From Halosolutus gelatinilyticus (GTDB lineage: Archaea; Halobacteriota; Halobacteria; Halobacteriales; Natrialbaceae): a DNA stretch of 64,000 nucleotides. The position numbers and the translations under genes are program-made. Under the pieces are notes generated by a model, which was not told the origin of the DNA, searched no databases, and was given only the letters and a program-made list of their open reading frames with translations. Shown one piece after another: positions 4,898 through 54,996 of the stretch. Where the stretch lies: the NCBI RefSeq assembly GCF_023028105.1, contig NZ_CP095491.1, forward strand, positions 1,674,001-1,738,000, given 5' to 3'. How positions within the stretch are numbered: the stretch's first letter is position 1; every line of letters begins with the position of its first letter.

Positions 4898-6550
4898 ATG
4901 ACAGAAAAATCACACGGGCGATACGATCGACGACAGTTTTTGAAAGCAATGGGTGCGGCGACCGTGACGGTCGGCTTCGCCGGCAAGACGAGCGCGTCGC
5001 CGTCGACGCGACGACTCGTCATCGGCGTCGAGGACGAGTGGACGATCGAGGAGGTTCGCGAGTCGATCCGCGCCGATCCGGACGTTCCGAACCGAGCGAA
5101 GGTCGTCCACCACAACGAGACGATCGACTACGCCGTCCTCGAACTCGCCGGGCCGGCGGCGCAATCCGCCGATCGGGCGAAAGAAGCCGTCGGCAAGCAC
5201 TCCGGCGTCGCGTACGCCGAGACGGACTACGAGATCAGGTTCGAGGTCGAAGAGATCCAGGCCGTCGACCCCAACGATCCACGCTGGGGCGAGGAGTGGG
5301 CCGACGAGGCCGTCAACGCCCCGACCGCCTGGGAGACGACGATGGGGTCGCTGAACTCGACGCTGGCGATCATCGACACCGGACTCGACGTCCACCACCC
5401 CGACCTCGAGGAACGAGTGACGGACGAGGTCGGCGGACCCGATCCGGTACCCGACGGCGAGGACGACCACGGAACCCACTGCGGCGGGTGCGCGGCGGCG
5501 ACGACTAACAACGGCGTCGGCGTCGCGGGGCCGACGAACAGCCGGCTGCTCGGGTACAACATCTGGGACAACATCCGGGGCGAGGACGCCATCGTCGACG
5601 CCTCGGACAAGGGCGCCGACGTGATCTCGCTCTCGTGGTCGGTCGGCTACGACGAGCAGCCGTCGCTCCGCGACGCCATCCAGTATGCGACCGACAACGG
5701 GACGGTTGTGCTCGCCGCATCGGCCAACGACGGGCGGACCGACGCCGTCACCTATCCGGCCAGCGACTCCAACGTCATCGCCGTCGGCGCGACCGACGCG
5801 AACGGCAACGTTGCGGACTTCTCGAACTCCGGGCCGAACCTCGACCTCGTCGCTCCCGGGGTGAACGTCCTTAGCACGCTTCCCCAGGAGAGCTACGGTC
5901 GGGCCTCGGGGACGTCGATGGCCTGCCCCGTGACGGCCGGCGTCGCGGCGCTCGCGAAGGAACTCGATCCGTCGCTCTCGACGGCCGAGGTTCGCGGCCT
6001 GCTCACGGATACGGCGACGACGCTCCCGGGGGTTCCGTCGGACCGCCAGGCGGCAGGACAGGTCGACGCCGCCGCCGTGGTCGACGCCGTGTCGGACGGC
6101 GGCGGCGACGGCGACCTCGTTGACGGCGGCACCTACCGAATCATCAACGTGAACAGCGGCAAGGCGCTGGAGGTCGAGAACGGCGCCACCGAGAACGGCG
6201 CCACCGTCCAGCAGTGGCCCGCCGCCGCCGTCGACCACCACAGGTGGACGATCCACGAGATCCGCGAGGGCGTGTACCAGGTACTCGTCGCCCACACCGG
6301 CAAGGCGCTGGACGTCGCCGACGTCTCGACCGACCCCGGCGCGAACGTCCACCAGTGGGACTACGTCGGCGGGGACAACCAGCACTGGCGCATCGAGGCC
6401 GTCGGCGACGGGGAGTACCGCATGATCGCCGACCACAGCGGCCTCGGACTGGAAGTCGATGACTGGAGCACCGACGACGGCGCGAACGTCATCCAGTGGG
6501 ACTACCACGGCGGCGCGAACCAGCGCTGGACCTTCGAACGGCTCTATTGA
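4898..6550 (+). CDS. Secreted S8 (subtilisin/halolysin-type) protease with ricin-type lectin domain
   Basis: A 550-residue extracellular serine protease. Residues 1-34 are a Tat signal (RRQFLKAMGA). Residues about 39-118 look like an I9-type propeptide. The S8 domain carries the triad D160 (IIDTGLD), H191 (DDHGTHCGG) and S340 (GTSMACP), with oxyanion-hole N277. After a short glycine/aspartate linker, residues 415-550 form a ricin-B-like beta-trefoil with three repeats ending in QQW, HQWDY...QHW and IQWDY...QRW. ATG 4898 is chosen because it starts right before the twin-arginine signal; longer upstream starts add unrelated sequence. Halolysins often end in other domains, so the sugar-binding tail suggests glycoprotein or polysaccharide targeting. 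Confidence 0.92.
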   Translation: MTEKSHGRYDRRQFLKAMGAATVTVGFAGKTSASPSTRRLVIGVEDEWTIEEVRESIRADPDVPNRAKVVHHNETIDYAVLELAGPAAQSADRAKEAVGKHSGVAYAETDYEIRFEVEEIQAVDPNDPRWGEEWADEAVNAPTAWETTMGSLNSTLAIIDTGLDVHHPDLEERVTDEVGGPDPVPDGEDDHGTHCGGCAAATTNNGVGVAGPTNSRLLGYNIWDNIRGEDAIVDASDKGADVISLSWSVGYDEQPSLRDAIQYATDNGTVVLAASANDGRTDAVTYPASDSNVIAVGATDANGNVADFSNSGPNLDLVAPGVNVLSTLPQESYGRASGTSMACPVTAGVAALAKELDPSLSTAEVRGLLTDTATTLPGVPSDRQAAGQVDAAAVVDAVSDGGGDGDLVDGGTYRIINVNSGKALEVENGATENGATVQQWPAAAVDHHRWTIHEIREGVYQVLVAHTGKALDVADVSTDPGANVHQWDYVGGDNQHWRIEAVGDGEYRMIADHSGLGLEVDDWSTDDGANVIQWDYHGGANQRWTFERLY

Positions 6551-6693
6551 CGCCCGCCGGTTCGATTCGATATTTTTTCGCGTCGCTTCCGGGGACTCGA
6601 CGTCCGACCCGATCGGCGCCGACGCCGCGGATTCTCTCGGCTCACCGCCGCAGCCCCGACACTAATAGCCGGGGCTGTGGTAGCCACTCCGAC

Positions 6694-7650
6694 ATGCACG
6701 ACATCATTCCCGTCTCTGAAATCATGGTCACCGACGTCGTGACGGCGCCGATCGACGCCAGCGTGGCGCGGGCGGCGACGCTGATGCGCGATGAGCACGT
6801 CAGTTCGGTCGTCGTCACGCGGGACGGCGCCCCGGTCGGAATCGTCACCGAGGGAGACTTCGTGACGTACCTCTGCGGCCGCGAACACCTCGGCGCCGTC
6901 GAACTGGACGAGGTGATGTCGGCACCGCTCGTGACGATCGCGCCCGACACGTCGATCGTCGACGCCGTCTCAGTCCTTCGATCGGAGGACCTCGAACACC
7001 TGCCGGTCGTCCGGAAGACCGGGACGGACGGTGGCGAGGGTGGCGGTGAGGGCGGCGACCTCGCGGGAATCCTCACGACGACGGAGCTCACCTACTTCGT
7101 GCCGCACTTGGCCCGCCAGACCGGCGACCGCAGCGCCGAGCGCCCCCGGCGAGCGGTGCGAACCGACACCGCGTACGAACGGGACGACTGGGAATTCGAG
7201 TATCACGGCGAGGACGAGTCGACCGTCTCCGTCGGCGACGTTGCGCGGTTCTCGAAACCGATCACGATCGACGACGTCGAGGCCTTCGCCGACGTCACCG
7301 GCGACACGAACAGGCTCCACCTCGACGGGGCGTACGCGGCCGAGACCCGATTCGGGAGGCCGATCGTTCACGGGGTGCTCGCCAACGGAGTGATCAGCGC
7401 GGCGCTCGCTCGGCTGCCGGGGCTGACGATCTACCTCTCGCAGGAGAGTAGCTTCCTGGCGCCGCTCCCGATCGGCGATCGCGTGATCGCCGTCTGCGAA
7501 GTCCTCGAGGACCTCGGCAGGGACAAGTACCGGATCGAGACGACCGTTACCGACGCGGAGGGGACGACCGTCCTCGAGGGCGACGCGGTCGTCCTCGTCG
7601 ACGAGTTGCCGCCGGTGGCCGTTCTCGAGCGCGACGCGGCATCCTCGTAA
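6694..7650 (+). CDS. CBS-domain pair fused to MaoC-type hydratase domain
   Basis: A 318-residue fusion. Residues 1-130 form two CBS domains, a module that usually binds adenosyl ligands. Residues about 175-305 form a MaoC hot-dog hydratase domain with the family motif DVTGDTNRLHLD (catalytic Asp and His), followed by FGRPIVHGVLANG. A glycine-rich linker (EGGGEGGD) interrupts the second CBS domain. MaoC enzymes hydrate (R)-enoyl-CoA, for example in polyhydroxyalkanoate or branched-chain metabolism; the CBS pair may gate activity by energy charge. The ATG at 6694 lies about 30 bases after a CTAATAG box, fitting a leaderless start. Its 3' end faces srp54 across 208 bases that hold no gene. Confidence 0.88.
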   Translation: MHDIIPVSEIMVTDVVTAPIDASVARAATLMRDEHVSSVVVTRDGAPVGIVTEGDFVTYLCGREHLGAVELDEVMSAPLVTIAPDTSIVDAVSVLRSEDLEHLPVVRKTGTDGGEGGGEGGDLAGILTTTELTYFVPHLARQTGDRSAERPRRAVRTDTAYERDDWEFEYHGEDESTVSVGDVARFSKPITIDDVEAFADVTGDTNRLHLDGAYAAETRFGRPIVHGVLANGVISAALARLPGLTIYLSQESSFLAPLPIGDRVIAVCEVLEDLGRDKYRIETTVTDAEGTTVLEGDAVVLVDELPPVAVLERDAASS

Positions 7651-7858
7651 CGCCGCCGACGCACGCGTTCGAGATACTGCCGTCTGTCCATACGGCCTCA
7701 TGCAAGTAACCCGGTTTGGGCGTGGCGGCAACGCGATAGTCACTCGATCGGAACGATCGCGCCGAGCGGACGTCGGATCAGAAACACCGACGATTGCAGC
7801 GGACCGGACTCGAATCGGAAAACCGAAGCGATCGCGATCCGGCGACGGCGTTCCGGAC

Positions 7859-9247
7859 TCAGAACGGCCCCATCCCGCCCATCCCGCCGCCACCGCCGCC
7901 TTGCTGTTGCATCTGTTTCATCATGCGCTGCATCTCCTTGTCCGATCCCATCCCCTGGAACTGCTTGATCGTCCGCTCCATCATCTTGTACTGCTGGAGC
8001 AATTCCCGGACCTCGTCCTCGCTCGTGCCCGAACCGCGGGCGATGCGTTCGACCTGGCTCGCGCCGATCGCCTTCGGGTACTCCTTTTCGGCGTCGGTCA
8101 TCGAGTCCATGATGACCTGGAACGTGATCATCCGATCCTGGGTGACGTCCATCGCGTCGTCGGGCAACTGGTCTTTGATGCCGCCGCCGAAGCCGGGGAT
8201 CATGTCCAGTACCTGGTCGAGCGGCCCCATGTTGTTCATCGCCTCCATCTGCTTTTGCATGTCGTTCAGGGTGAAGTTCCCCTTCAACATGTCCTCGGGG
8301 TCCCAATCGTCCTCCTCGATGTCGGTCTGTTGCATCGCGCGCTCGACGCGCTCGGCGAGCTGGGAGAGGTCGCCCATTCCGAGCAGCCGCGAGATGAAGC
8401 CGTCGGGCTCGAAGCGCTCGATGTCCTGGACCTCTTCGCCCGTCCCGAGGAACGCGATCGACGAGTCGGTCTGGTCGACCGCGGTCAGCGCGCCGCCACC
8501 TTTCGCCGTACCGTCGAGTTTCGTGATGACGACGCCCTCGATGCCGATCGACTCGTCGAACTGCTGGGCCTGCTCTTTCGCACCTTGCCCGATCGCGGCG
8601 TCGAGCACGAGCAGCGAGGTGTCCGGGTCGACGACGTCCTCGATCTGCTCGATCTCGTCGATCAGATCCTCCTCGAGCGCGTGTCGACCCGCGGTGTCGA
8701 CGATGTGGACGTCGGCCTCGCCCGTCTCCTCGAGTCCCTTTCGGGCGATGTCGACGGGGTCGTCATTGTCGGGATCGCCGTAGAAGTCGACCTCCGCGCG
8801 CCGGGTCATCTCCTTGGCCTGGTCGTAGGCGCCGGGTCGGAAGGTGTCCGTCTGGATGACGGCCGGGCGCAGTCCCTTCGTCGAGAACCACCACGCCATC
8901 TTCGCGGCGGAGGTCGTCTTCCCGGACCCCTGCAGGCCGGCAAGCAGGATCGTCTGCTCCTCGAGCGGGAGGTCGGTCGACTCGCCGATGAGGTCGACCA
9001 GTTCCTCGTAGACGATGCGGAGGACGAAATCGCGCGCCGGCGTCCCGGCCGGCGGTTCCTCCTCTAAGGCCCGCCGTTTGATGTTGTCCGACAGTTCCAT
9101 CACGAGCGAGACGTCGACGTCGGCGGAGAGGAGCGATCGCTGGATCTCCTTGACGATCTCCTCGACGTCCTCCTCGCTGATCCGTGACTTTCCGCGGAGT
9201 TTGTCGAGGGTGCCCCGCAGAGAGCTTCCGAGATCGTCGAGTACCAT
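7859..9247 (-). CDS. srp54: Signal recognition particle protein Srp54
   Basis: A 462-residue SRP GTPase that binds 7S RNA and signal peptides and docks with FtsY at the membrane. The N domain (residues 1-90) is followed by the G domain with GLQGSGKTT (P-loop), DTAGRH and TKLDG. The methionine-rich M domain then runs to a glycine-rich tail ([13 protein letters not shown]). Length and order are standard for archaeal Srp54. The ATG at 9247 sits about 25 bases after a TTTAAC box, suggesting a leaderless mRNA. Its receptor gene ftsY is also in this window, about 23 kb away. Confidence 0.97.
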
Positions 9248-20252: not shown

Positions 20253-20534
20253 CACCGTCGACTCAGGTTCCCAGCGCCGATAACGCATCGGTCCCGGCAC
20301 GACTCCCCAGGGTACCGAGGTGGTGGCAACATTATCCGGTTCGGGGCCGGCCGCGAGCTCTCCGGGCGCCGACCCGCGTCGGCGATTTCTCTAATCGCGG
20401 GACGGTGGCCCGGTGCGGGGAGACGACGGTCCGTGCCTGCTCGACGTAGCGGCAATGGTTGCCGGAAGAGTCGAACGCCGACCGAATTGTCCGGTTGGTG
20501 AGTCACTATACGGGTGGCACCCCATGGGTCGCAC

Positions 20535-21401
20535 ATGGCAACCGACGAATACGCCAACGACGTGCTCGTATCGGCTGATTGGGTCGAGGACAACCTCGAC
20601 GAGTTCCAGGATGACGGCTCCGACCTCCGTCTCGTCGAGGTCGACGTCGACACGGAAGCGTACGACGAGGAGCACGCCCCCGGCGCGATCGGGTTCAACT
20701 GGGAGACCCAGCTCCAGGACCAGACGCGACGCGATATCCTCGACAAGGACGAGTTCGAGGACCTGCTGGGCAGCCACGGTATCAGCGAGGACGACACCGT
20801 CGTCCTCTACGGCGACAACTCCAACTGGTTCGCCGCCTACGCCTACTGGCAGTTCAAGTACTACGGCCACGACGACGCCCGTCTCCTCGACGGCGGCCGG
20901 GAGTACTGGCTGGAGAACGACTACCCGACGACGGACGAGGTTCCGGCGTTCTCCGAGACCGAATACGACGCGTCCGGCCCGCGCGAGTCCATCCGCGCCT
21001 ACCGCGATGACGTCGAAAACGCGATCGACCGCGGCGTTCCCCTCGTGGACGTCCGATCGCCCGAAGAGTTCAGCGGCGAGGTCCTCGCCCCGCCGGGACT
21101 CCAGGAGACCGCCCAGCGCGGCGGTCACGTCCCGGGTGCGAAGAACATCTCGTGGGCGGCCGTGACGAACGACGACGGCACGTTCAAGAGCCGCGACGAA
21201 CTCGAGGCGCTCTACGCCGACGAAGGCATCGAGGGCGACAGCACGACCGTCGCCTACTGCCGCATCGGGGAGCGCTCCTCGGTCGCCTGGTTCGCGCTCC
21301 ACGAACTGCTCGGGTACGAGGACGCCGTCAACTACGACGGCTCCTGGACCGAGTGGGGCAACCTCGTTGACGCGCCGATCGAGCAGGGCAGCGGCGAGTA
21401 A
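20535..21401 (+). CDS. Thiosulfate sulfurtransferase (two-domain rhodanese)
   Basis: A 288-residue two-domain sulfurtransferase. The active loop AYCRIGERSS in the second domain holds the catalytic cysteine and a positively charged thiosulfate-type loop. The first domain has YGDNSNWFAA with no cysteine. The start at ATG 20535 begins MATDEYAND; an alternative GTG at 20514 would overlap a likely TATA box (CACTATACGG near 20503-20513). It is divergent from the other rhodanese, sharing a 282-base promoter region, and the two probably differ in acceptor. Confidence 0.9.
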   Translation: MATDEYANDVLVSADWVEDNLDEFQDDGSDLRLVEVDVDTEAYDEEHAPGAIGFNWETQLQDQTRRDILDKDEFEDLLGSHGISEDDTVVLYGDNSNWFAAYAYWQFKYYGHDDARLLDGGREYWLENDYPTTDEVPAFSETEYDASGPRESIRAYRDDVENAIDRGVPLVDVRSPEEFSGEVLAPPGLQETAQRGGHVPGAKNISWAAVTNDDGTFKSRDELEALYADEGIEGDSTTVAYCRIGERSSVAWFALHELLGYEDAVNYDGSWTEWGNLVDAPIEQGSGE

Positions 21402-27623: not shown

Positions 27624-29216
27624 TCAGTACCCCTGATCGTGCGGGTTCAGCGCCGTGCCGTAGTTCTCTGCGTGGTCCGCGTAGTCGATGAACCGGGGCG
27701 CGTCGGGATCGAACGGCCGTTCGAGGCTCTCGAAGGCCTTCTTCTTGTCCCAGCCCTGGAGCTTGCCGATCGCGCTCCGGTCTTCGAGGTCGTGGTAGTC
27801 GAGCTTCGGCTCGGTCAGCTCCCAGGCCTTCATCCCCCGTTCGGTGCGGATGATGACGCTCGAGTACTCGTCCGAGGAGCCGACGGAGCCGACGGTGACG
27901 TCCGAACAGAAGCCGGTGAAGTCGGCGCACTCGTCACAGCCCTTGAGCGCGGCGTCGTGGAAGTTCTCGACGTCCTCTTCGAGGATCATCTCGCCGTCGC
28001 GGCCGTAGACCATCATCTTGCCGTGGAGGACGTCCATCTTGCCGATCTCGTCCGGCGAGATGTCGCGTTTTTCCGCCAGTTGCTCACCGATGAGGCTGTA
28101 GTAGTTGAAGTTCTTCGTACACATCAGCGCGATCGTGTAGTCGACCGCGCGGATGCCTTCGTTCTGTTTCTGGTAATCCCAGTCGAAGTCCTGGAGGGCG
28201 CGGATGCCCTCGATCTCGCAGGGCGTGCCGACCAAGGCGAGCGAGAGGTCGTCCCAGTCCTTGTCGGGGAGCTTGTGCTCCCACCGTTTCAGGTCGAGGT
28301 TGCCCAGCGCGAGCGTCTGGTTGTAGACCGTGCCGGCGTTCTCGATCAGCTCTTCTTCCGTCGTGGCGAGGAAGCTCTCGGCCTTCCACGGCTCATCTTC
28401 GCTCTCGGTCGCGATCAGCGCGCCGTCGATCTCGCCCTCCTCGAGCAGCGTGGCGAGGATGCCGGTGACGACGCCGCCGTCCTGGGCGCCCTCGGTCCAG
28501 TCGTCGTCGACCTTCGCGGAGAACTCCGTGATCGGATCGCCGGCGCCCGTGACGTTGTCCTCGCCGCCGGTGATCTTCCACTGGCGCTCGTACCGGAGGC
28601 CGCCGCGCGGACAGAAGTCCCAGCAGAGCGAACAGCCGGTGCACATCTTGACCAGCTTGGGCAGGTCGTCCTCGCCGACGCCGATCGAGTCCGACGGACA
28701 GGCGGCGACGCAGGTCCCACACTGGATACACCGATCCGCGCCGATGACCGCCTCGTCGAGTTCCATGAACCAGGTTTTCTCGTCCGGCGTCTCGATATCG
28801 TTCATCTGCGATCGGATCGAGTACTCGGGCGTGTCGAGGTCGACGCCGTCGGGAACGCCGACGCGGACGTCTGGTTCGCCGTTGTCGACGTCCTGGCTGA
28901 CCCCCTCGGCGGGTTCGGTGAACTCGATCTCGCCGAGGTCGCCGGTCTCGTCGACGTTGGCCACGCCAGCTCCATCCGTGGCGACGGGCTGATCCTGTGC
29001 GGTCGCGTCTCCCGTCTTCTCGCCGCAGGTGCAGGTCTCGGGACCGCAGCTATCGCCGGTGCCGGTTTCGATCGCGCCGTCGCGAGCGTGGTCGGTTCCG
29101 TGGCGCGATCGCGGTGCGGTGCTCCCGGTCTCGGGGAACGCGACCGTCTCGTCGTCGTCCGCGTTCGAGTCGGGAACGCGCGGGAACGCGAGCTCGTCGT
29201 CGCCGTCAGTCCCCAT
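27624..29216 (-). CDS. FrhB-like F420 oxidoreductase subunit with ferredoxin clusters
   Basis: A 530-residue protein. After a variable acidic N-terminus with cysteines near 57-64, two [4Fe-4S] ferredoxin motifs appear: C163-x2-C166-x2-C169-x3-C173 and C192-x2-C195-x2-C198-x3-C202. The rest is a FrhB/FdhB-type domain (VVTGILATLLEEGEIDGALI, VGTPCEIEGIRAL, GCDECADFTGFCSDVTVGSVGSS), which in methanogens binds FAD and reduces or oxidises coenzyme F420. ATG 29216 overlaps the siroheme reductase stop by 11 bases. By analogy with FpoF and the N-terminal half of Fsr, it likely feeds electrons from F420H2 to that reductase. Confidence 0.88.
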   Translation of the reverse strand: MGTDGDDELAFPRVPDSNADDDETVAFPETGSTAPRSRHGTDHARDGAIETGTGDSCGPETCTCGEKTGDATAQDQPVATDGAGVANVDETGDLGEIEFTEPAEGVSQDVDNGEPDVRVGVPDGVDLDTPEYSIRSQMNDIETPDEKTWFMELDEAVIGADRCIQCGTCVAACPSDSIGVGEDDLPKLVKMCTGCSLCWDFCPRGGLRYERQWKITGGEDNVTGAGDPITEFSAKVDDDWTEGAQDGGVVTGILATLLEEGEIDGALIATESEDEPWKAESFLATTEEELIENAGTVYNQTLALGNLDLKRWEHKLPDKDWDDLSLALVGTPCEIEGIRALQDFDWDYQKQNEGIRAVDYTIALMCTKNFNYYSLIGEQLAEKRDISPDEIGKMDVLHGKMMVYGRDGEMILEEDVENFHDAALKGCDECADFTGFCSDVTVGSVGSSDEYSSVIIRTERGMKAWELTEPKLDYHDLEDRSAIGKLQGWDKKKAFESLERPFDPDAPRFIDYADHAENYGTALNPHDQGY

Positions 29217-30891
29217 GGGCAACACCTCGCGCGACCGGCGCCTCCGCACGCTGCATGATCGATCGGAGCCGCTCGTTGTCGGCGCGGCGACACCACTGGT
29301 AGAACTTCTCGCCGTCCTCGCGATCGTCGGCGTAGGCCTCGAACAGCTGTTCGAGCGCCGGGATCACGGCGTCGGCGGGGACGGCGTTCTCGATCCAATC
29401 GAGGAACTCGTTGTCCGCGCCGAGCGAGCCGCCGAGCCCGAAGTCCATGCCCTCGACGATGTCGGACTCGCCGTCCTCGTCCAGCTTCACCGTCTCGCCG
29501 CGGAAGCCGATGTCCGCGATCTGGGGCTGAGCGCACGACGCGGAGCAGCCGGACATGTGCATCCGGATCGCCTCGATGTCGTCGGGCACGTCGATGCGCT
29601 CGTCGAGTTCGCGGGCCCAGCGTTTGGTTCGCTTCTTGGTCTCGATGATCGCGTAGTTGCAGAACTCGTTGCCGGTACAGCCGACCGCGCCGCGGGAGAA
29701 CGGCCCCGGATCCGGCTGGTACTCCTGGGCGAACGGCTCGGCGAGGAGATCGTCGACGTTCTCCTCGGGGACGTGCGTGATGAGGAAGTTCTGGTCGGTT
29801 GCGAGGCGGACGGAGGCGTCCGCGGTGCCGTACTTCTTGGCCGCGCGGGCGGCCTCGGCGAACTCGTCGCCGCCCATCCGGCCGGCGATCACGTTGAATC
29901 CGACGTACTTCAGCCCGTCTTGCTTCTGGTCGTGGACGCCGACGTGGTCGCCCTGGTAGCCGACGGTGAGGTTCTGGCCGGCTTCGGGCAGGTCGATCGT
30001 ACACCGATCGCGAACGGCTTCCTCGAACTTCGCGGGGCCCATCTGCTCGACGAGGTAGCGCATGCGGCAGACCCCGCGGTTGTGGCGATCGCCGAGCTCT
30101 TTGAAGGTCTGGGCGACGGCGCGGCAGAACTCGACGGCGTGCTCGGGTCGAATGAAAGCGTCGAGTTCCGACCCCATCCGCGGCCCGTCGGAGAGGCCGC
30201 CGCCGACGCGGGCGTGGAAGCCGTAGTAGTACTCGCCTTCCAGTTCCTTCTTCGCCGGGACGAGGCCGATGTCGTTGATCTGGGATTGGGCGCAGTCGTG
30301 CCGGCAGCCGGTGATCGTGAGCTTGAACTTCCGCGGGAGGTTAGCGTACTCCCGGTTCTCGGTGAAGAAGTCGGAGACGGCGTCGACGACCGGCTGGGCG
30401 TCGAAACACTCGTGATCGTCGAGGCCGGCAGCAGGACAGCCGAGGACGTTCCGGGCGGAGTCGCCACAGCCCTGAACCGTCGTCAGGCCGACCTCGTCGT
30501 AGCGCTCCCACATCTCGGGGACGTCCTCGACGCGGATCCAGTGTTTCTGGATGTCCTGTCGGGTCGTGATGTCGAGGTAGGCGTCGCCCCAGAGTTCGTT
30601 CTGTTCCTCGCCGCCGTACTCCTCGGGCGCGACGGCGTAGTCGGTAGCGCACTCGCCGATCACTTCGGCCTGCTCGGGCGTGAGGTAGCCGCCCGGCACC
30701 TTGGTCCGAATCATGAAGTAGCCCTCTTGTTTCTGGGCGTACATGCCGGCCCACTTCAGACGCTCCCACTCACCGCCGCCGGCGCGCTCTTCGATTTCCT
30801 CGAAGGAGAGTTGCTCCTCGGCGTAGTCGTAAACGTCGTCGATCACGTCGAGGGGGTGTTTCTCCTGCTTGTACCGCTCGGTCGTGTTCAT
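29206..30891 (-). CDS. Siroheme nitrite/sulfite reductase
   Basis: A 561-residue reductase with the duplicated NirA/CysI architecture. The siroheme-[4Fe-4S] cysteines are C405-x5-C411 (CTGNEFC) and C449-x3-C453 (CSASC). The first half carries the parallel motifs QGCGDSARNVLGCPAAG and TGCRHDCAQSQ. It performs the six-electron reduction of nitrite to ammonia or sulfite to sulfide; which one cannot be decided here. The start is ATG 30891 (MNTTERYKQEKHPLDV). It is the first gene of an operon with the FrhB-like gene. Confidence 0.93.
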   Translation of the reverse strand: MNTTERYKQEKHPLDVIDDVYDYAEEQLSFEEIEERAGGGEWERLKWAGMYAQKQEGYFMIRTKVPGGYLTPEQAEVIGECATDYAVAPEEYGGEEQNELWGDAYLDITTRQDIQKHWIRVEDVPEMWERYDEVGLTTVQGCGDSARNVLGCPAAGLDDHECFDAQPVVDAVSDFFTENREYANLPRKFKLTITGCRHDCAQSQINDIGLVPAKKELEGEYYYGFHARVGGGLSDGPRMGSELDAFIRPEHAVEFCRAVAQTFKELGDRHNRGVCRMRYLVEQMGPAKFEEAVRDRCTIDLPEAGQNLTVGYQGDHVGVHDQKQDGLKYVGFNVIAGRMGGDEFAEAARAAKKYGTADASVRLATDQNFLITHVPEENVDDLLAEPFAQEYQPDPGPFSRGAVGCTGNEFCNYAIIETKKRTKRWARELDERIDVPDDIEAIRMHMSGCSASCAQPQIADIGFRGETVKLDEDGESDIVEGMDFGLGGSLGADNEFLDWIENAVPADAVIPALEQLFEAYADDREDGEKFYQWCRRADNERLRSIMQRAEAPVARGVAHGD

Positions 30892-30956
30892 GTCGACCAC
30901 CGCCGGTGCGCGCCGGCAGTCGTCGCGATCGCGCTGTAGCGAAAGATCATCGTTTG

Positions 30957-30983
30957 ACGGGGTATCTCACCCCGTGCGTATAC
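30957..30983 (-). promoter_or_regulatory. Promoter and operator of the siroheme reductase operon
   Basis: On the minus strand a GTATAC box (30978-30983) is followed towards the gene by a perfect inverted repeat, ACGGGGT-ATCTC-ACCCCGT (30957-30975). The repeat covers the expected transcription start region, leaving a leader of about 60 bases. This is a likely repressor site. The rest of the 30892-31269 gap (378 bases) is GC-rich and shows no convincing gene. Confidence 0.55.
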
Positions 30984-34542: not shown

Positions 34543-35634
34543 TCAATCGAAGCCACTGACGAGCGTCGCGACCCACTGGGCCGGATCGTCGCGGCGACGG
34601 ACGTCCACGCGTTCGATCCACTTCACCCACTGGAATCCGCGCCGACCGGGCGCCACGAGCCGCATCGGGGCCCCGTGGCCGTGGCTGAGTCGCTCGTCGC
34701 CCACGTGGGTCGCGAGGAGCGCGTCTCGGGCCTCGTCGATCGGCAGCGACCACCGGTAGCCGGTCACCGAGACGAACCGGACGTACCGCGCCTCCGCCCG
34801 GACCTCGGCCGCGTCGAGCAGATCGCCGACGCGGACGCCGCGCCACTTCTGGACGGTGTACCAGCCGCTCGTGCAGTCCAACAGGGCTCGTTTCTCGCCG
34901 TCGAGCGCGAGGTCGCCGTAGGCGGACTCGATCGGCGTCTCGACCTCGCCGCGGACGGTCAGCGTCCAGTCGGCCCGATCGATCGGCTCGGGATCGTCGG
35001 CGACCCACGAGGTGATCGGAAAGCCGTCGTTGCCGTCCCCGTCTCGCGGCTGCGAGCCCGTGAACCGCCGATCGGCGCCGGGCGTGTCGAGGACGCGGTT
35101 CGCGAGTTCCTGCGCCCGGTAGGTGAACGCCCCGCCGATCAGCAACGCCCCGTACTGGAGCGTCGTCCGGCGGCGGTCGAAGTCGGTTCGACGCGGGAGC
35201 CGAAACCGGGTCGTGAGGTGCCACAGCAGCAGCGGGACGAGGGCGAGTCCGAACCCGACGTGGACGCTCAGGAGCGTCCAGTAGGAGAGTCGCGCGTCGA
35301 GGCCGACTACCCAGAGGAGGCCCGTCCCGATCGCGCCCGTCGCCGCGAGCAGGGTGAGCACCGACAGGAGCGTGGAGGGGCGCCACTGCCCGCGCCGGGT
35401 GAGTCGGTACCGAACCCGAGCGAGTTTGAACCCCAGCAGCGCGATCAGCGTCAGGCCGAGAATCCGGTGGAGCCAGAACAGCGGCCACCCCGACGCCGTC
35501 CCGACCGTAAACGAGACCAGCCCAGAGACGGCTTCGAAGACGACGATCGCGAAGATCGACCAATCGACCAGCCGCGGGGGCGGCCTGACGGCGTCGAGCG
35601 CACGCCTCGCGGGATCGATCGGGCCGGACACCAT
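34543..35634 (-). CDS. Molybdopterin sulfite-oxidase-like enzyme with cytochrome b membrane domain
   Basis: A 363-residue fusion. Residues 20-170 form about four membrane helices with histidines H56, H125 and H139 that could bind heme b, as in the DsbB/YedZ or cytochrome b561 type. Residues 205-363 form a sulfite-oxidase-type molybdopterin domain whose Mo ligand is C254 in LLDCTSGWYT. It probably oxidises or reduces a small substrate, passing electrons through the heme to quinone; the domain is shorter than usual YedY. No Tat signal is seen before the first helix. Confidence 0.85.
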   Translation of the reverse strand: MVSGPIDPARRALDAVRPPPRLVDWSIFAIVVFEAVSGLVSFTVGTASGWPLFWLHRILGLTLIALLGFKLARVRYRLTRRGQWRPSTLLSVLTLLAATGAIGTGLLWVVGLDARLSYWTLLSVHVGFGLALVPLLLWHLTTRFRLPRRTDFDRRRTTLQYGALLIGGAFTYRAQELANRVLDTPGADRRFTGSQPRDGDGNDGFPITSWVADDPEPIDRADWTLTVRGEVETPIESAYGDLALDGEKRALLDCTSGWYTVQKWRGVRVGDLLDAAEVRAEARYVRFVSVTGYRWSLPIDEARDALLATHVGDERLSHGHGAPMRLVAPGRRGFQWVKWIERVDVRRRDDPAQWVATLVSGFD

Positions 35635-44718: not shown

Positions 44719-44813
44719 CGAGCGCTAACTCCAAACGGTGGGAGTAGGAGGGCGGATCACCCACGTACAGATGAAGACTACATTTAACCGTGCCACCCAA
44801 CTACCGTTTGCCA

Positions 44814-47800
44814 ATGAGTCAACAGGGCGAACGCAGTGACCAACCGGGGACGCCGGGTCTCGAAAGCGGCCTCGAGGCATTGCGTCAGAGTCCTGAGTTT
44901 CGCGGCCCGGTCGAATCCCTCGATGGTCACGACCACGCCAACGACCATTTTGCACTCATATATAAGAACCGAGACGAGCAGTTCGCGGCCGTCATCCCGT
45001 TCATCCACCAAGGGCTTGAGCAGGGCAAGCGATGCCTGTACATCGCGGATGACAACTCGAAAGCAGAAGTACTGGAAGCGATGCGGGCCCGCGGCATTGA
45101 CGTGGACGGTGCCCTTGACTCGGGTGCGCTTTCCGTCCACACGGAGGCGGACACGTACCACAGGACCGGCACGTTCAATCAGGATGCGATACTGGAGTTC
45201 TGGGAGGACTCCCTAACGGAGGCAACAGACGAGGACGGCTACACGGGAATCAGGGCAGCCACCGAGATGACGTGGGCGCTGGACGAGGATACGAGCCCTG
45301 ATCAACTGGTCGAGTACGAAGCGGCCCTCAACTCTCTGTTCCAGAACGAGGACTACACCGTCATGTGTCAGTATAATCGCGAGCGGTTCCCACCCGAGAT
45401 GCTCGAAGACGTCATCGAGGCCCACCCGCACCTCATCCACGACAACATGGTCTCTCACAACGTCTACTACACCCCACCCAAGGAGTTCTTCGGCCCCGAG
45501 CAGCCAGCCGACAAGGTTGATCGGATGATGGGGAAGCTGCGCGAGCAGACCGAGGCGAAGACGGAACTCCAGCAATCGAAAGAACACTTCAAGCAGGTCT
45601 TCGAGAGCAACCACGACGCCACCCTCATCGTTGACTCCGACGCGGACGAAATCCTCGCTGCAAATCCGGCCGCATCCAAGATGCTTGGATACGCACGAGA
45701 CGAGTTGCTGTCGCGCGGCCCCTCCGACTTGTATCCCGACGAACTCGACAGATTCAGTACGTTCGTTGACGAGGTGTTCGAAGATGGGATCGGCTGGACA
45801 GACGAACTCACCTGCCGCAGCAGGGATCGGGGCCGGATTCCGACTGAGATCTCGGCGTCCCAAATCGAGGTCGATGACCGCCCGGTCATGCTCGCGACGA
45901 TCCGCGACATCAGCGAGCGCAAGGAACACGAGCAGGCCCAACAGAGATTGTACGAGATTGTGGCCGATTCCGACCGGCCGTTCGACGACAAACTCCAAGC
46001 GGTACTTGAGCTCGGCTGCGAGCGGTTCGGCCTCGAATACGGCGGGATCGCCCGCATCGATCCGACGGCCGATCTGTTCGAGGTGGAGACCATACGCGGG
46101 GACCATGACCACCTCGTCCCGGGCGAGCAGTATCCGCTCTCCGAAACCTACTGCCGATTGGTGGCGGACGACGGAGAAACCGCTGCCGTCACCGACCCTG
46201 TAAGCGAGGGGTTCGAGGGGAAACTGTGCTACGAGCGCTTCGGCGTCCAGGCATACCTCGGAACCCAACTCGAAGTCGATGGTGACGTCGATCGGACGTT
46301 CTTCTTCGTCTCGAACGAACCACGAAAGGAGGAGTTCTCAGAGGCCGAACGCACGTTCCACCACCTGATGGGGAAGTGGGTGGAGTATGAACTTGAACGC
46401 AGGCAGGCCGCGGAGGCGCTGCGCGAACAAACCCACACCCTCGAAACGATCAACCAGGCGGGCAACTCATTGGCCGCCGAACTCGACCTCGAGAATCTGG
46501 TGCAGGAGGTTACAGACGCCGGTACGGAAATAACCGGCGCGGAGTTTGGTGCTTTCTTCTATAACGTCATCGATGACCAGGGCGAATCCTACACGCTCTA
46601 TACCCTCTCAGGTGTTCCTGATGAGGCATTCGAAGACTTCCCGATGCCGCGCAATACGGAGGTCTTCGGCCCGACCTTTCACGGCGAGGGGGTCGTCCGT
46701 TCGGACGACATCACCAAAGATCCGCGGTACGGTAAAAACGCGCCCTACGATGGGATGCCCGAAGGCCATCTGCCCGTATGCAGTTACCTGGCGGTTCCTG
46801 TAATCTCGAACTCCGGTGAAGTACACGGCGGCCTTTTCTTCGGCCATTCGGAGCGGAGCATCTTCACCGAGAAGGATGAAAACATCATCACCGGGATTGC
46901 TGCCCAAGCGGCCGTAGCCATTGATAATGCTCGTCTGTATGAAACGGCGCGCGAAAGCGAGGAGCGATTCCGAGCGTTGGTCACCGCGAGTTCGGAAGCC
47001 GTGTTTCGCATGGGCCCCGATTGGAACAAAATGCAACACCTCGAAGCCCACGGCTTCCTCGCCGACACAAACGAACCGACCAGCGACTGGCTTGACAAAT
47101 ACATTCACCCGGACGACCAGGAGCGCGTCATGGAGGCCGTCAACGAAGCCGTCCGGACCAAGAGCACGTTCGAGATTGAACACCGGGTGGAGCAGGCCGA
47201 TGGCAGCCTGGGCTGGTCATTCACGCGTGCGGTACCAATGTTGAATGAGGACAGTGACATTGAGGAATGGATTGGTATGGCGAGCGACATTACCGAGCGC
47301 AAGCATCGCCAGCAGGAACTCGAACAAACTAACGCACAACTAGAACGCTCGAACGCCGAATTGAAACGGTTCGCCTACGCCGCCTCCCACGATCTCCAGG
47401 AGCCGTTACGGATGGTGTCGAGTTATGTCCAACTGCTCGAACACCGATATGCCGACGATCTCGATGCCGACGCACAGGAGTACATCGAGTTCGCCGTCGA
47501 TGGTGCCGACCGGATGCGCGAGATGATCGATGCGTTGCTGCAGTATTCACGGCTCAACACGAGTGACAAAGAATTCGAACCCGTGGACTGTAATGACGTG
47601 CTCGCCCAGGCGACGGATAATCTTCAAATCGCCATCGAAGAGAGCAGCGCCGAGATTACCTCGGATTCACTGCCCACGGTCATAGGCGACGAGCAGCAAC
47701 TGGTGCAGCTGTTCCAAAATCTGCTCGATAACGCTATTACGTACGCTGGTGATGAGCCGCCGCATATTCACGTCACCGCTGAGAAGCAAAACGATGAATG

Positions 47801-48038
47801 GGTGCTGTCGGTCCAGGATAACGGAATCGGGATCGATTCGGAAAAGGCTGAGGAGATCTTTGAGGTGTTCAACCGCCTCCACACCACTGACGAGTATGCC
47901 GGCACTGGTATTGGCCTCGCACTCTGCCAACGGATCGTTGATATTCACAATGGCCGCATTTGGGTTGAGTCGGAACTCGGTGAGGGGTCGACTTTCTCAT
48001 TCACAGTTCCCGAGAAGAAAGCGAGCAAATCCGCATAG
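44814..48038 (+). CDS. MEDS/PAS/GAF multi-sensor histidine kinase
   Basis: A 1074-residue cytoplasmic kinase. Order: MEDS sensor (about 45-200, HANDHFALIYKNRDEQFAAVIPFIHQGLEQGKRCLYIADDNS), PAS (250-365), GAF (375-520), GAF (540-700), PAS (712-838), HisKA with H859 in ASHDLQEPLRM, and HATPase_c (955-1070; NLLDNAITYAG, DNGIGID, GTGIGLAL). No membrane helix is found. ATG 44814 follows a CATTTAA box by about 27 bases. Codon bias is weaker than in the host, suggesting transfer. A truncated response-regulator start lies 14 bases downstream, so the original partner is lost. Confidence 0.93.
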   Translation: MSQQGERSDQPGTPGLESGLEALRQSPEFRGPVESLDGHDHANDHFALIYKNRDEQFAAVIPFIHQGLEQGKRCLYIADDNSKAEVLEAMRARGIDVDGALDSGALSVHTEADTYHRTGTFNQDAILEFWEDSLTEATDEDGYTGIRAATEMTWALDEDTSPDQLVEYEAALNSLFQNEDYTVMCQYNRERFPPEMLEDVIEAHPHLIHDNMVSHNVYYTPPKEFFGPEQPADKVDRMMGKLREQTEAKTELQQSKEHFKQVFESNHDATLIVDSDADEILAANPAASKMLGYARDELLSRGPSDLYPDELDRFSTFVDEVFEDGIGWTDELTCRSRDRGRIPTEISASQIEVDDRPVMLATIRDISERKEHEQAQQRLYEIVADSDRPFDDKLQAVLELGCERFGLEYGGIARIDPTADLFEVETIRGDHDHLVPGEQYPLSETYCRLVADDGETAAVTDPVSEGFEGKLCYERFGVQAYLGTQLEVDGDVDRTFFFVSNEPRKEEFSEAERTFHHLMGKWVEYELERRQAAEALREQTHTLETINQAGNSLAAELDLENLVQEVTDAGTEITGAEFGAFFYNVIDDQGESYTLYTLSGVPDEAFEDFPMPRNTEVFGPTFHGEGVVRSDDITKDPRYGKNAPYDGMPEGHLPVCSYLAVPVISNSGEVHGGLFFGHSERSIFTEKDENIITGIAAQAAVAIDNARLYETARESEERFRALVTASSEAVFRMGPDWNKMQHLEAHGFLADTNEPTSDWLDKYIHPDDQERVMEAVNEAVRTKSTFEIEHRVEQADGSLGWSFTRAVPMLNEDSDIEEWIGMASDITERKHRQQELEQTNAQLERSNAELKRFAYAASHDLQEPLRMVSSYVQLLEHRYADDLDADAQEYIEFAVDGADRMREMIDALLQYSRLNTSDKEFEPVDCNDVLAQATDNLQIAIEESSAEITSDSLPTVIGDEQQLVQLFQNLLDNAITYAGDEPPHIHVTAEKQNDEWVLSVQDNGIGIDSEKAEEIFEVFNRLHTTDEYAGTGIGLALCQRIVDIHNGRIWVESELGEGSTFSFTVPEKKASKSA

Positions 48039-53873: not shown

Positions 53874-53951
53874 ATGACACACCAAACACGCCACCACGGT
53901 AAGCGTACCGGATACTGTAATCAATTAGAAATTCGCGAGGTGGGCCGATGA
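53874..53951 (+). CDS. Tiny frame coupled to the integrase
   Basis: MTHQTRHHGKRTGYCNQLEIREVGR (25 residues, basic N-terminus). Its stop overlaps the integrase start (ATGA). Its size and position recall small upstream peptides before haloarchaeal integrases, but the function is unknown and the call is weak. Confidence 0.35.
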   Translation: MTHQTRHHGKRTGYCNQLEIREVGR

Positions 53952-54996
53952 GCGGTCTCGAGCCGATCGCGCCCCACGACGCGATCGAGATGTATCACGA
54001 CGCGATGCGCGACGAGCACGCGGAGTCGACACGCAGGAGCGCGAAACACCGGCTGCGCGCGTTCGTGCAATTCTGTGACGAGCACGGAATTGATGATCTA
54101 AACGAACTCTCTGGCCGGGACATCTACAAGTACCGAATCTGGCGACGCGAGGGGGCTGGTGACGATCGAGAACCGGTTAAACTGGTCACTCTGAAGGGTC
54201 AACTCGCGACGCTCCGCCGATTTCTGCGCTTCGCGGCGAACATCGACGCCGTGCCTCCAGAGCTGTACGAACAGGTCACGCTGCCGACGATGAAAAACGG
54301 CGAAGACGTGTCAGATTCGACGCTGAAACCCGATCGAGCGGTGACGATCCTGGAATATCTCGAACGCGCTCAACCGGCTTCTCGTGACCATATTGTCGTG
54401 ATGCTGCTCTGGCGAACAGGCGCGCGAACTGGTGCGGTCCGTGGGCTCGATCTTCGAGATCTTGACCTCGACGGATCGCACCCGCGTGTTTCCGGCCCTG
54501 CCATTCACTTCGTCCACCGACCAGAGACCGGAACGCCGCTCAAGAACCAAGAAAAGGGACCCGATGGAACCGAATTAGCGAGAAAGCAGCCCGGTACATT
54601 GAGGACTATATCGAGTACCACCGTCCCGACGTAACGGACGAGCACGGCCGGAAACCGCTACTCACGACGGAGTACGGTCGTCCCGCTGGGAATACTCTGC
54701 GAAAGACGCTCTACCGCGTCACACGACCCTGCTGGCGAGGTGAGCCGTGTCCCCACGATCGCGACCTTGACGAGTGCGACGCCGCCCATCTCGACCACGC
54801 GAGTAAGTGCCCATCGTCGCGGTCACCTCACGACCTCCGCAGTGGTCGTGTGACCTACTATCGGCGAGAGGATGTTCCGCGTCAGATCGTACAAGACCGC
54901 CTCAACGCGAGCGAGGATATCCTCGATCGGCATTACGACCGCCGTTCAGTCCGAGAACAGGCCGAACAGCGCAGCGATTACCTTCCTGACCTATGA
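53948..54996 (+). pseudogene. Tyrosine integrase broken by a frameshift
   Basis: The N-terminal SAM-like domain (EMYHDAMRDEHAESTRRSAKHRLRAFVQFCDEHGI) and first catalytic part, with arginine in WRTGARTGAVRGLDLRD, read in one frame to NQEKG at about 54555. The rest continues in the next frame: WNRISEKAARYIEDYI, SPHDLRSGRVTYY with HxxR, and LDRHYDRRS with the nucleophile tyrosine, ending at TGA 54996. One base seems lost in the AAAAGGG run. Restored, it would be a full-length integrase of about 350 residues of the common haloarchaeal tRNA-targeting type. The break could also be a sequencing error or a true programmed shift. Confidence 0.85.

Follow-up and report, generated by a model that had tools for sequence, protein, structure and literature searches.

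In the 64,000-nucleotide stretch of the Halosolutus gelatinilyticus genome analysed here (hereafter the window; contig NZ_CP095491.1, positions 1,674,001 to 1,738,000, from a genome of 4.76 Mb in four contigs), two overlapping genes on the reverse strand encode a NirA-type siroheme reductase and an iron-sulfur flavoprotein related to FrhB. This arrangement corresponds to aFsr, which was predicted and named in haloarchaea in 2012 by Susanti and Mukhopadhyay (PMC3448663). With a rough probability of 0.58, we propose that the two genes encode a two-subunit, coenzyme F420H2-dependent sulfite reductase of the assimilatory type. The features of the locus, in window coordinates, are as follows.

29206..30891, minus strand: NirA-type siroheme nitrite/sulfite reductase (aFsr-alpha), 561 amino acids from ATG 30891, with GTG 30900 as alternative start
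30319..30336, minus strand: PRKFKL codons with the K-F-K anion-binding signature, reductase residues 189-194 (GTG numbering), from the alignment
29206..29216, minus strand: gene overlap of 11 bases, read in the sequence; short overlaps alike in most relatives
27624..29216, minus strand: FrhB-like Fe-S flavoprotein (aFsr-beta), 530 amino acids from ATG 29216, with GTG 29249 as alternative start
29025..29048, minus strand: Cys-rich motif CGPETCTC, within the acidic extension at the N-terminus of the FrhB-like protein
28602..28745, minus strand: ferredoxin-like domain with two 4Fe-4S motifs, C163/166/169/173 and C192/195/198/202 (ATG numbering; Pfam)
28308..28520, minus strand: FrhB N-domain with the QDGG loop for the pyrophosphate of flavin adenine dinucleotide (FAD), residues 245-248; QDGG in 81/81 homologues
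27813..28244, minus strand: FrhB C-domain with the flavin-proximal 4Fe-4S ligands C333, C366, C427 and C430, HGK loop 398-400 and GSVG loop 443-446

The gene pair reported in an earlier note on this DNA is confirmed. Both frames are real genes and the overlap of 11 bases is exact, as the FrhB-like gene starts at ATG 29216 and the TGA of the reductase (29208-29206) lies inside it in a different frame; a start at GTG 29249 would extend the overlap to 44 bases. Position 30983, which the earlier note had taken as the upper end, cannot be the start of the reductase, since it lies upstream of an in-frame stop (30967-30969). The gene begins instead at ATG 30891 or GTG 30900, and most relatives likewise start MNT.E..KQ.KHPLDV, as from the ATG.

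Assignment of the two proteins to their families holds far above chance. The reductase comprises two NIR_SIR stretches (E-value 2e-53) and two NIR_SIR_ferr stretches (1e-30), a Pfam scan found no Fer4 domain in it, and its nearest solved relatives are plant ferredoxin-nitrite reductases (2e-85, i.e. about 1e-85) and Mycobacterium tuberculosis NirA (4e-73). Its siroheme-cluster motif C-x5-C ... C-x3-C (C408/C414 and C452/C456) and its anion site R65, R150 and K191-x-K193 (R-R-K-x-K; all in GTG numbering), both features of SiRHP-type sulfite reductases, are invariant in 78 full-length homologues. The siroheme half of the F420-dependent sulfite reductase Fsr, in contrast, matches at 1e-9, far more weakly than plant nitrite reductase (NiR) or NirA; hence the pair represents an independent pairing and not an Fsr cut in two, and the designation as a “split Fsr” had to be abandoned. 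In the FrhB-like protein, two ferredoxin motifs (Fer4 diclusters) precede the FrhB_FdhB_N (4e-21) and FrhB_FdhB_C (2e-32) domains, and the N-terminal half of Fsr is matched at 2e-37. The two ferredoxin clusters previously ascribed to this protein are indeed present, as two complete CX2CX2CX3CP motifs.

A genome scan yielded 80 FrhB loci, all haloarchaeal, at 79 of which a reductase lies directly upstream on the same strand (69-90% identity); the named relatives most similar to the pair belong to the Natrialbaceae. A control search found no FrhB in Haloferax volcanii. In an even sample of 145 haloarchaeal genomes, each at least 90% complete, 45 carry a total of 58 FrhB copies, and 57 of these are paired (56 from the tables and L162 on inspection), relatedness among the genomes inflating the significance of such pairing statistics. 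The search for the same pair in other haloarchaea, as suggested by the earlier note, thus came out clearly positive. Of the 45 FrhB genomes, 39 possess the FrhB-linked reductase (76-100% identity), which is never found without FrhB in the sample, while the remaining six carry a rhodanese-fused second subtype. Furthermore, the pair is kept on plasmids, including pHME505 of Haloferax mediterranei (genes E6P09_RS15580 and E6P09_RS15575), and at non-syntenic sites, and it persists while neighbouring genes change, no other partner gene being kept. In a tree of 50 reductases, a branch with 100/100 support separates the FrhB-linked from the unlinked haloarchaeal NirA homologues. It is almost certain that the two proteins work as one unit, presumably as a physical complex. 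A larger operon was rejected, since only the two genes recur together; in roughly half the loci ftsY, prefoldin and SRP54 genes lie nearby, apparently as a matter of ordinary synteny on the chromosome.

Two FrhB copies differ in their surroundings. Near the second copy of Halobacteriales archaeon YIM A00010 (L080, 9953-11368) no siroheme reductase was found. At L161 (G105:C7:44000-56000, 5801-8886), an FrhB-like protein 73% identical to that of the window occurs without a reductase, next to a FAD_binding_2 (fumarate-reductase-like) flavoprotein, a short-chain dehydrogenase/reductase (SDR) and an IclR-type regulator, where it may belong to a putative F420-linked flavoenzyme in a catabolic cluster.

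The sequence of the FrhB half supports its reading as a predicted F420H2-oxidase-type module of the Fsr-N/FpoF/FrhB family. Judged from sequence columns of 81 homologues rather than from coordinates, and against the known cofactor loops of FrhB, among them QDGG at the FAD pyrophosphate (PMC3930138), the four flavin-proximal cluster cysteines and the flavin-facing GSVG are invariant in 81/81 along with QDGG, while the HGK loop varies; the FAD loop and cluster ligands of the FrhB-family F420 module are therefore all in place. By sequence and fold, the nearest solved relatives are the F420-reducing subunit of the ethanotroph carbon monoxide dehydrogenase (CODH) complex (8riu), Fsr and Frh, with the ferredoxin-using HCAR (5dqr) behind them. 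The genome encodes F420 synthesis and an NADPH:F420 reductase, as CofD (353 bits) and NpdG (254 bits) both score above curated cut-offs. In addition, 66 of the 81 homologues bear a CxnCxC motif in the N-terminal extension (CGPETCTCGEK here, CGCGxxCGCG in others), which lies outside the stretch aligning with Fsr, FrhB or CODH zeta.

Three NirA-type reductases but one FrhB are encoded in this genome, and the anion site tells them apart. Lys193 (GTG numbering) of the FrhB-linked enzyme aligns with Asn226 of spinach NiR, the triplet being Lys-Trp-Asn226 in spinach and Lys-Phe-Lys here. Exchange of Lys for Asn at this site distinguishes sulfite reductases from plant-type nitrite reductases. A corresponding difference is also described in PMC13381448. 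In place of the Asn that marks plant- and NasD-type ferredoxin-nitrite reductases, Lys is found here and in 78/78 full-length FrhB-linked relatives. The paralogue at C1:1311k, which adjoins a NasA-like assimilatory nitrate reductase, has Lys-Phe-Asn, whereas that at C1:389k, whose neighbourhood includes a CcdA-like membrane protein and a thioredoxin-like protein, has Lys-Trp-Lys (neighbours of both named from sequence by eye). At 20 further loci of other haloarchaea, 3/3 NasA-linked reductases have Asn and 17/17 of the 389k type have Lys; altogether, Asn occurs in all four NasA-linked reductases read and Lys in every FrhB-linked one examined. NasA and the Asn-type reductase (NasD) occur together in 60 genomes and singly in 5, with NasD present in 60 of the 64 NasA genomes, and this near-perfect co-occurrence implies that a separate enzyme handles nitrite. 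Genomes with the FrhB pair less often carry the other Lys-type (K-x-K) reductase (odds ratio (OR) 0.21, p 5e-5, confounded by ancestry), a pattern that two alternatives serving the same purpose would produce, and eight genomes have the pair as the sole siroheme reductase found. Residue signature and separate NasA-linked nitrite reductase together favour sulfite, which is likely to be the physiological substrate. As an aside, the NasD homologues G031:C2:481228-482979 and G040:C10:158006-159769 are recorded with one and two in-frame stops, respectively; since a 584-amino-acid open frame (L182) covers the latter gene, the two stops assigned to it are probably located where the match ends.

The second subtype, represented by 18 surveyed copies as well as Halomontanus rarus and Natronococcus occultus, has a partner of about 800-900 residues, and the partners read consist of N-terminal rhodanese domains (two in the scanned protein) followed by the reductase. 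At L092 (5215-9191), L093 (5532-9170) and L162-L165, a divergent FrhB (38-45% identity) directly follows this fusion, and at L093 a nos (nitrous oxide reductase) cluster lies next to the two genes. The occurrence of a rhodanese-NirA fusion in Halobacteria is known from a 2024 report (PMC11237513), the accessible part of which makes no mention of a link to FrhB.

We envisage a soluble two-subunit enzyme, in which the FrhB-like subunit would accept a hydride from F420H2 onto FAD. The flavin would split it into single electrons, which may then pass through the flavin-proximal 4Fe-4S cluster and the built-in two-cluster ferredoxin domain (three 4Fe-4S clusters in all) and so reach the siroheme-4Fe-4S centre in the NirA-type subunit. 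There, sulfite would undergo six-electron reduction to sulfide, with nitrite reduction probably a side reaction, and the NpdG-type reductase would provide F420H2 at the expense of NADPH.

Several observations run counter to this model, and those concerning the substrate lead to the thought that the same F420H2-driven enzyme might act physiologically on nitrite, in assimilation or detoxification. K-x-K is compatible with nitrite: Fsr of nitrate-assimilating methanogens bears Lys at this site as well, siroheme reductases with this Lys can reduce nitrite, and Fsr does so in Methanocaldococcus infernus (PMC13381448); FsrII of anaerobic methanotrophic archaea (ANME) is an F420H2 nitrite reductase (PMC9295563). 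The pair is also positively associated with NasA (33/45 genomes, OR 6, likewise confounded by ancestry), and two relatives are publicly annotated as ferredoxin--nitrite reductase. Nevertheless, we consider nitrite an unlikely physiological substrate: NasA is served by its own K-x-N reductase in nearly all genomes, the present one included, which disfavours a role of the pair as the nitrite reductase of nitrate assimilation; 12 of the 45 pair genomes have no NasA; and the rhodanese-fused subtype points to sulfur. A further point against the model concerns the source of sulfite. Sulfate assimilation is unsupported as its source, no Sat-type ATP sulfurylase having been found and matches to the phosphoadenosine phosphosulfate (PAPS) reductase superfamily being weak only. 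A two-domain rhodanese (thiosulfate sulfurtransferase-like) is encoded at 20514-21401 on the plus strand of the window, about 6 kb from the pair, with a homologue in 20 fetched loci, and is a possible source.

As to the donor, the position of FrhB Lys75 is occupied by V, F or I and never by Lys in the 81 homologues, although the adjoining Tyr (Tyr76) is kept. In the GKGK loop (163-IGKGK), whose lysines were proposed to lie near the F420 phosphate in FrhB, the first Lys is replaced by H, D, N or E throughout, while the second is retained in 54/81, including the window. The pocket check called for by the earlier note is consequently divided, with an invariant FAD loop on the one side and two changed lysines proposed for FAD/F420 on the other. 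Moreover, the AlphaFold model (mean pLDDT, a per-residue confidence score, 62) is good in the FrhB core only and offers no usable ferredoxin domain, probably owing to a too uniform alignment. From the lysine changes one might suppose that the FrhB-like subunit has lost F420 use and couples the reductase to ferredoxin or NAD(P)H, the more so as HCAR provides a ferredoxin-dependent member of the fold and the paralogous reductases function without FrhB, presumably on ferredoxin. The lysine changes do not exclude F420, however, because the 8riu subunit also departs at these positions (Asn for Lys75, Glu for the first GKGK Lys) and its complex reduces F420 in assays, and in ANME FsrII a change of charge at the F420 site has not abolished F420H2 use (Km ~14 uM, PMC9295563). 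The nearest relatives with measured activity use F420, and a one-electron donor could reduce NirA directly; a hydride donor would require a flavin ahead of the one-electron chain, as a two-to-one-electron switch, whereas ferredoxin would have no use for one. Another donor hence appears even less probable than nitrite, and F420H2 quite probable. Finally, the genes could be mere neighbours, with the FrhB-like protein serving another oxidoreductase, as the copy beside the fumarate-reductase-like flavoprotein and the one lacking a nearby reductase might hint; yet the pairing survey speaks against chance neighbourhood, and together with the translational overlap, the co-mobility and the single reductase clade it makes this explanation very improbable.

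Elsewhere in the window, a membrane protein fused to an Oxidored_molyb (sulfite-oxidase family) domain is encoded at 34543-35634 on the minus strand, about 4 kb from the pair. The segment 42000-58000 has a GC content of 0.55-0.63 compared with ~0.67, and contains PHROG-matching genes, a small tyrosine-integrase-like gene (53948-54634) and a large MEDS/PAS/GAF histidine kinase (44790-48038); it is probably an integrated element.

If the two-subunit F420H2-dependent sulfite reductase proves true, F420 gains a defined role in haloarchaea, which are known to produce this cofactor and where a 2021 survey of annotation problems counted one known F420-dependent reaction and called its importance “enigmatic” (PMC8305020), and the ferredoxin--nitrite reductase annotations of the FrhB-linked subfamily would be corrected. 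As the pair is widespread, tightly conserved and carried by a plasmid of Haloferax mediterranei, a well-studied species, and as it makes a clear prediction, the question of haloarchaeal F420 becomes directly testable. In a wider hypothesis, to which we give even odds, F420H2 would drive sulfur assimilation or sulfite detoxification in about one third of haloarchaea through an FrhB-captured NirA-type reductase, whose rhodanese-fused sister lineage would hand sulfite from thiosulfate or persulfide directly to an F420H2-fed siroheme site. The earlier remark that such an enzyme had not been studied in halophiles holds for the bench, as we found no experimental test of haloarchaeal aFsr in the literature searched, but not for the idea, published in 2012 (PMC3448663) with bacterial homologues (Rubrobacter, Thermobaculum) listed too. 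The name was repeated in a 2022 ANME paper (PMC9295563), and aFsr is not listed for halophiles in the accessible part of a 2021 F420 review.

Compared with known systems, the pair is a previously predicted, testable enzyme and not a new category. With aFsr as named in Halogeometricum, Halorhabdus, Halalkalicoccus and Haloterrigena it shares both an aSir/NirA-type subunit and an adjacent freestanding Fsr-N homologue (two ferredoxin clusters plus FrhB), without essential difference; new beyond 2012 are the residue-level substrate evidence, the class-wide survey, the FrhB link of the rhodanese-fused subtype and the N-terminal Cys motif. Fsr groups I and II of methanogens and ANME likewise feed a siroheme centre from a ferredoxin domain and an FAD/F420H2-oxidase domain, but do so in one fused chain whose siroheme half is Dsr-like with extra ferredoxin clusters, whereas here two genes are involved and the two-repeat NirA-type reductase lacks those clusters. 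Furthermore, motif B of Fsr misses its second Cys (PMC9295563), while both motifs are complete in the FrhB-like protein, as in FpoF/FqoF. The latter and CODH zeta (8riu) also combine an N-terminal dicluster ferredoxin with an FrhB domain as F420 module, but serve a membrane complex or CO dehydrogenase instead of a NirA-type reductase. Conversely, plant ferredoxin-nitrite reductase and M. tuberculosis NirA share the two-repeat siroheme-4Fe-4S fold of the reductase but draw on free ferredoxin, and the plant enzyme carries Asn226 where the haloarchaeal reductase has Lys.

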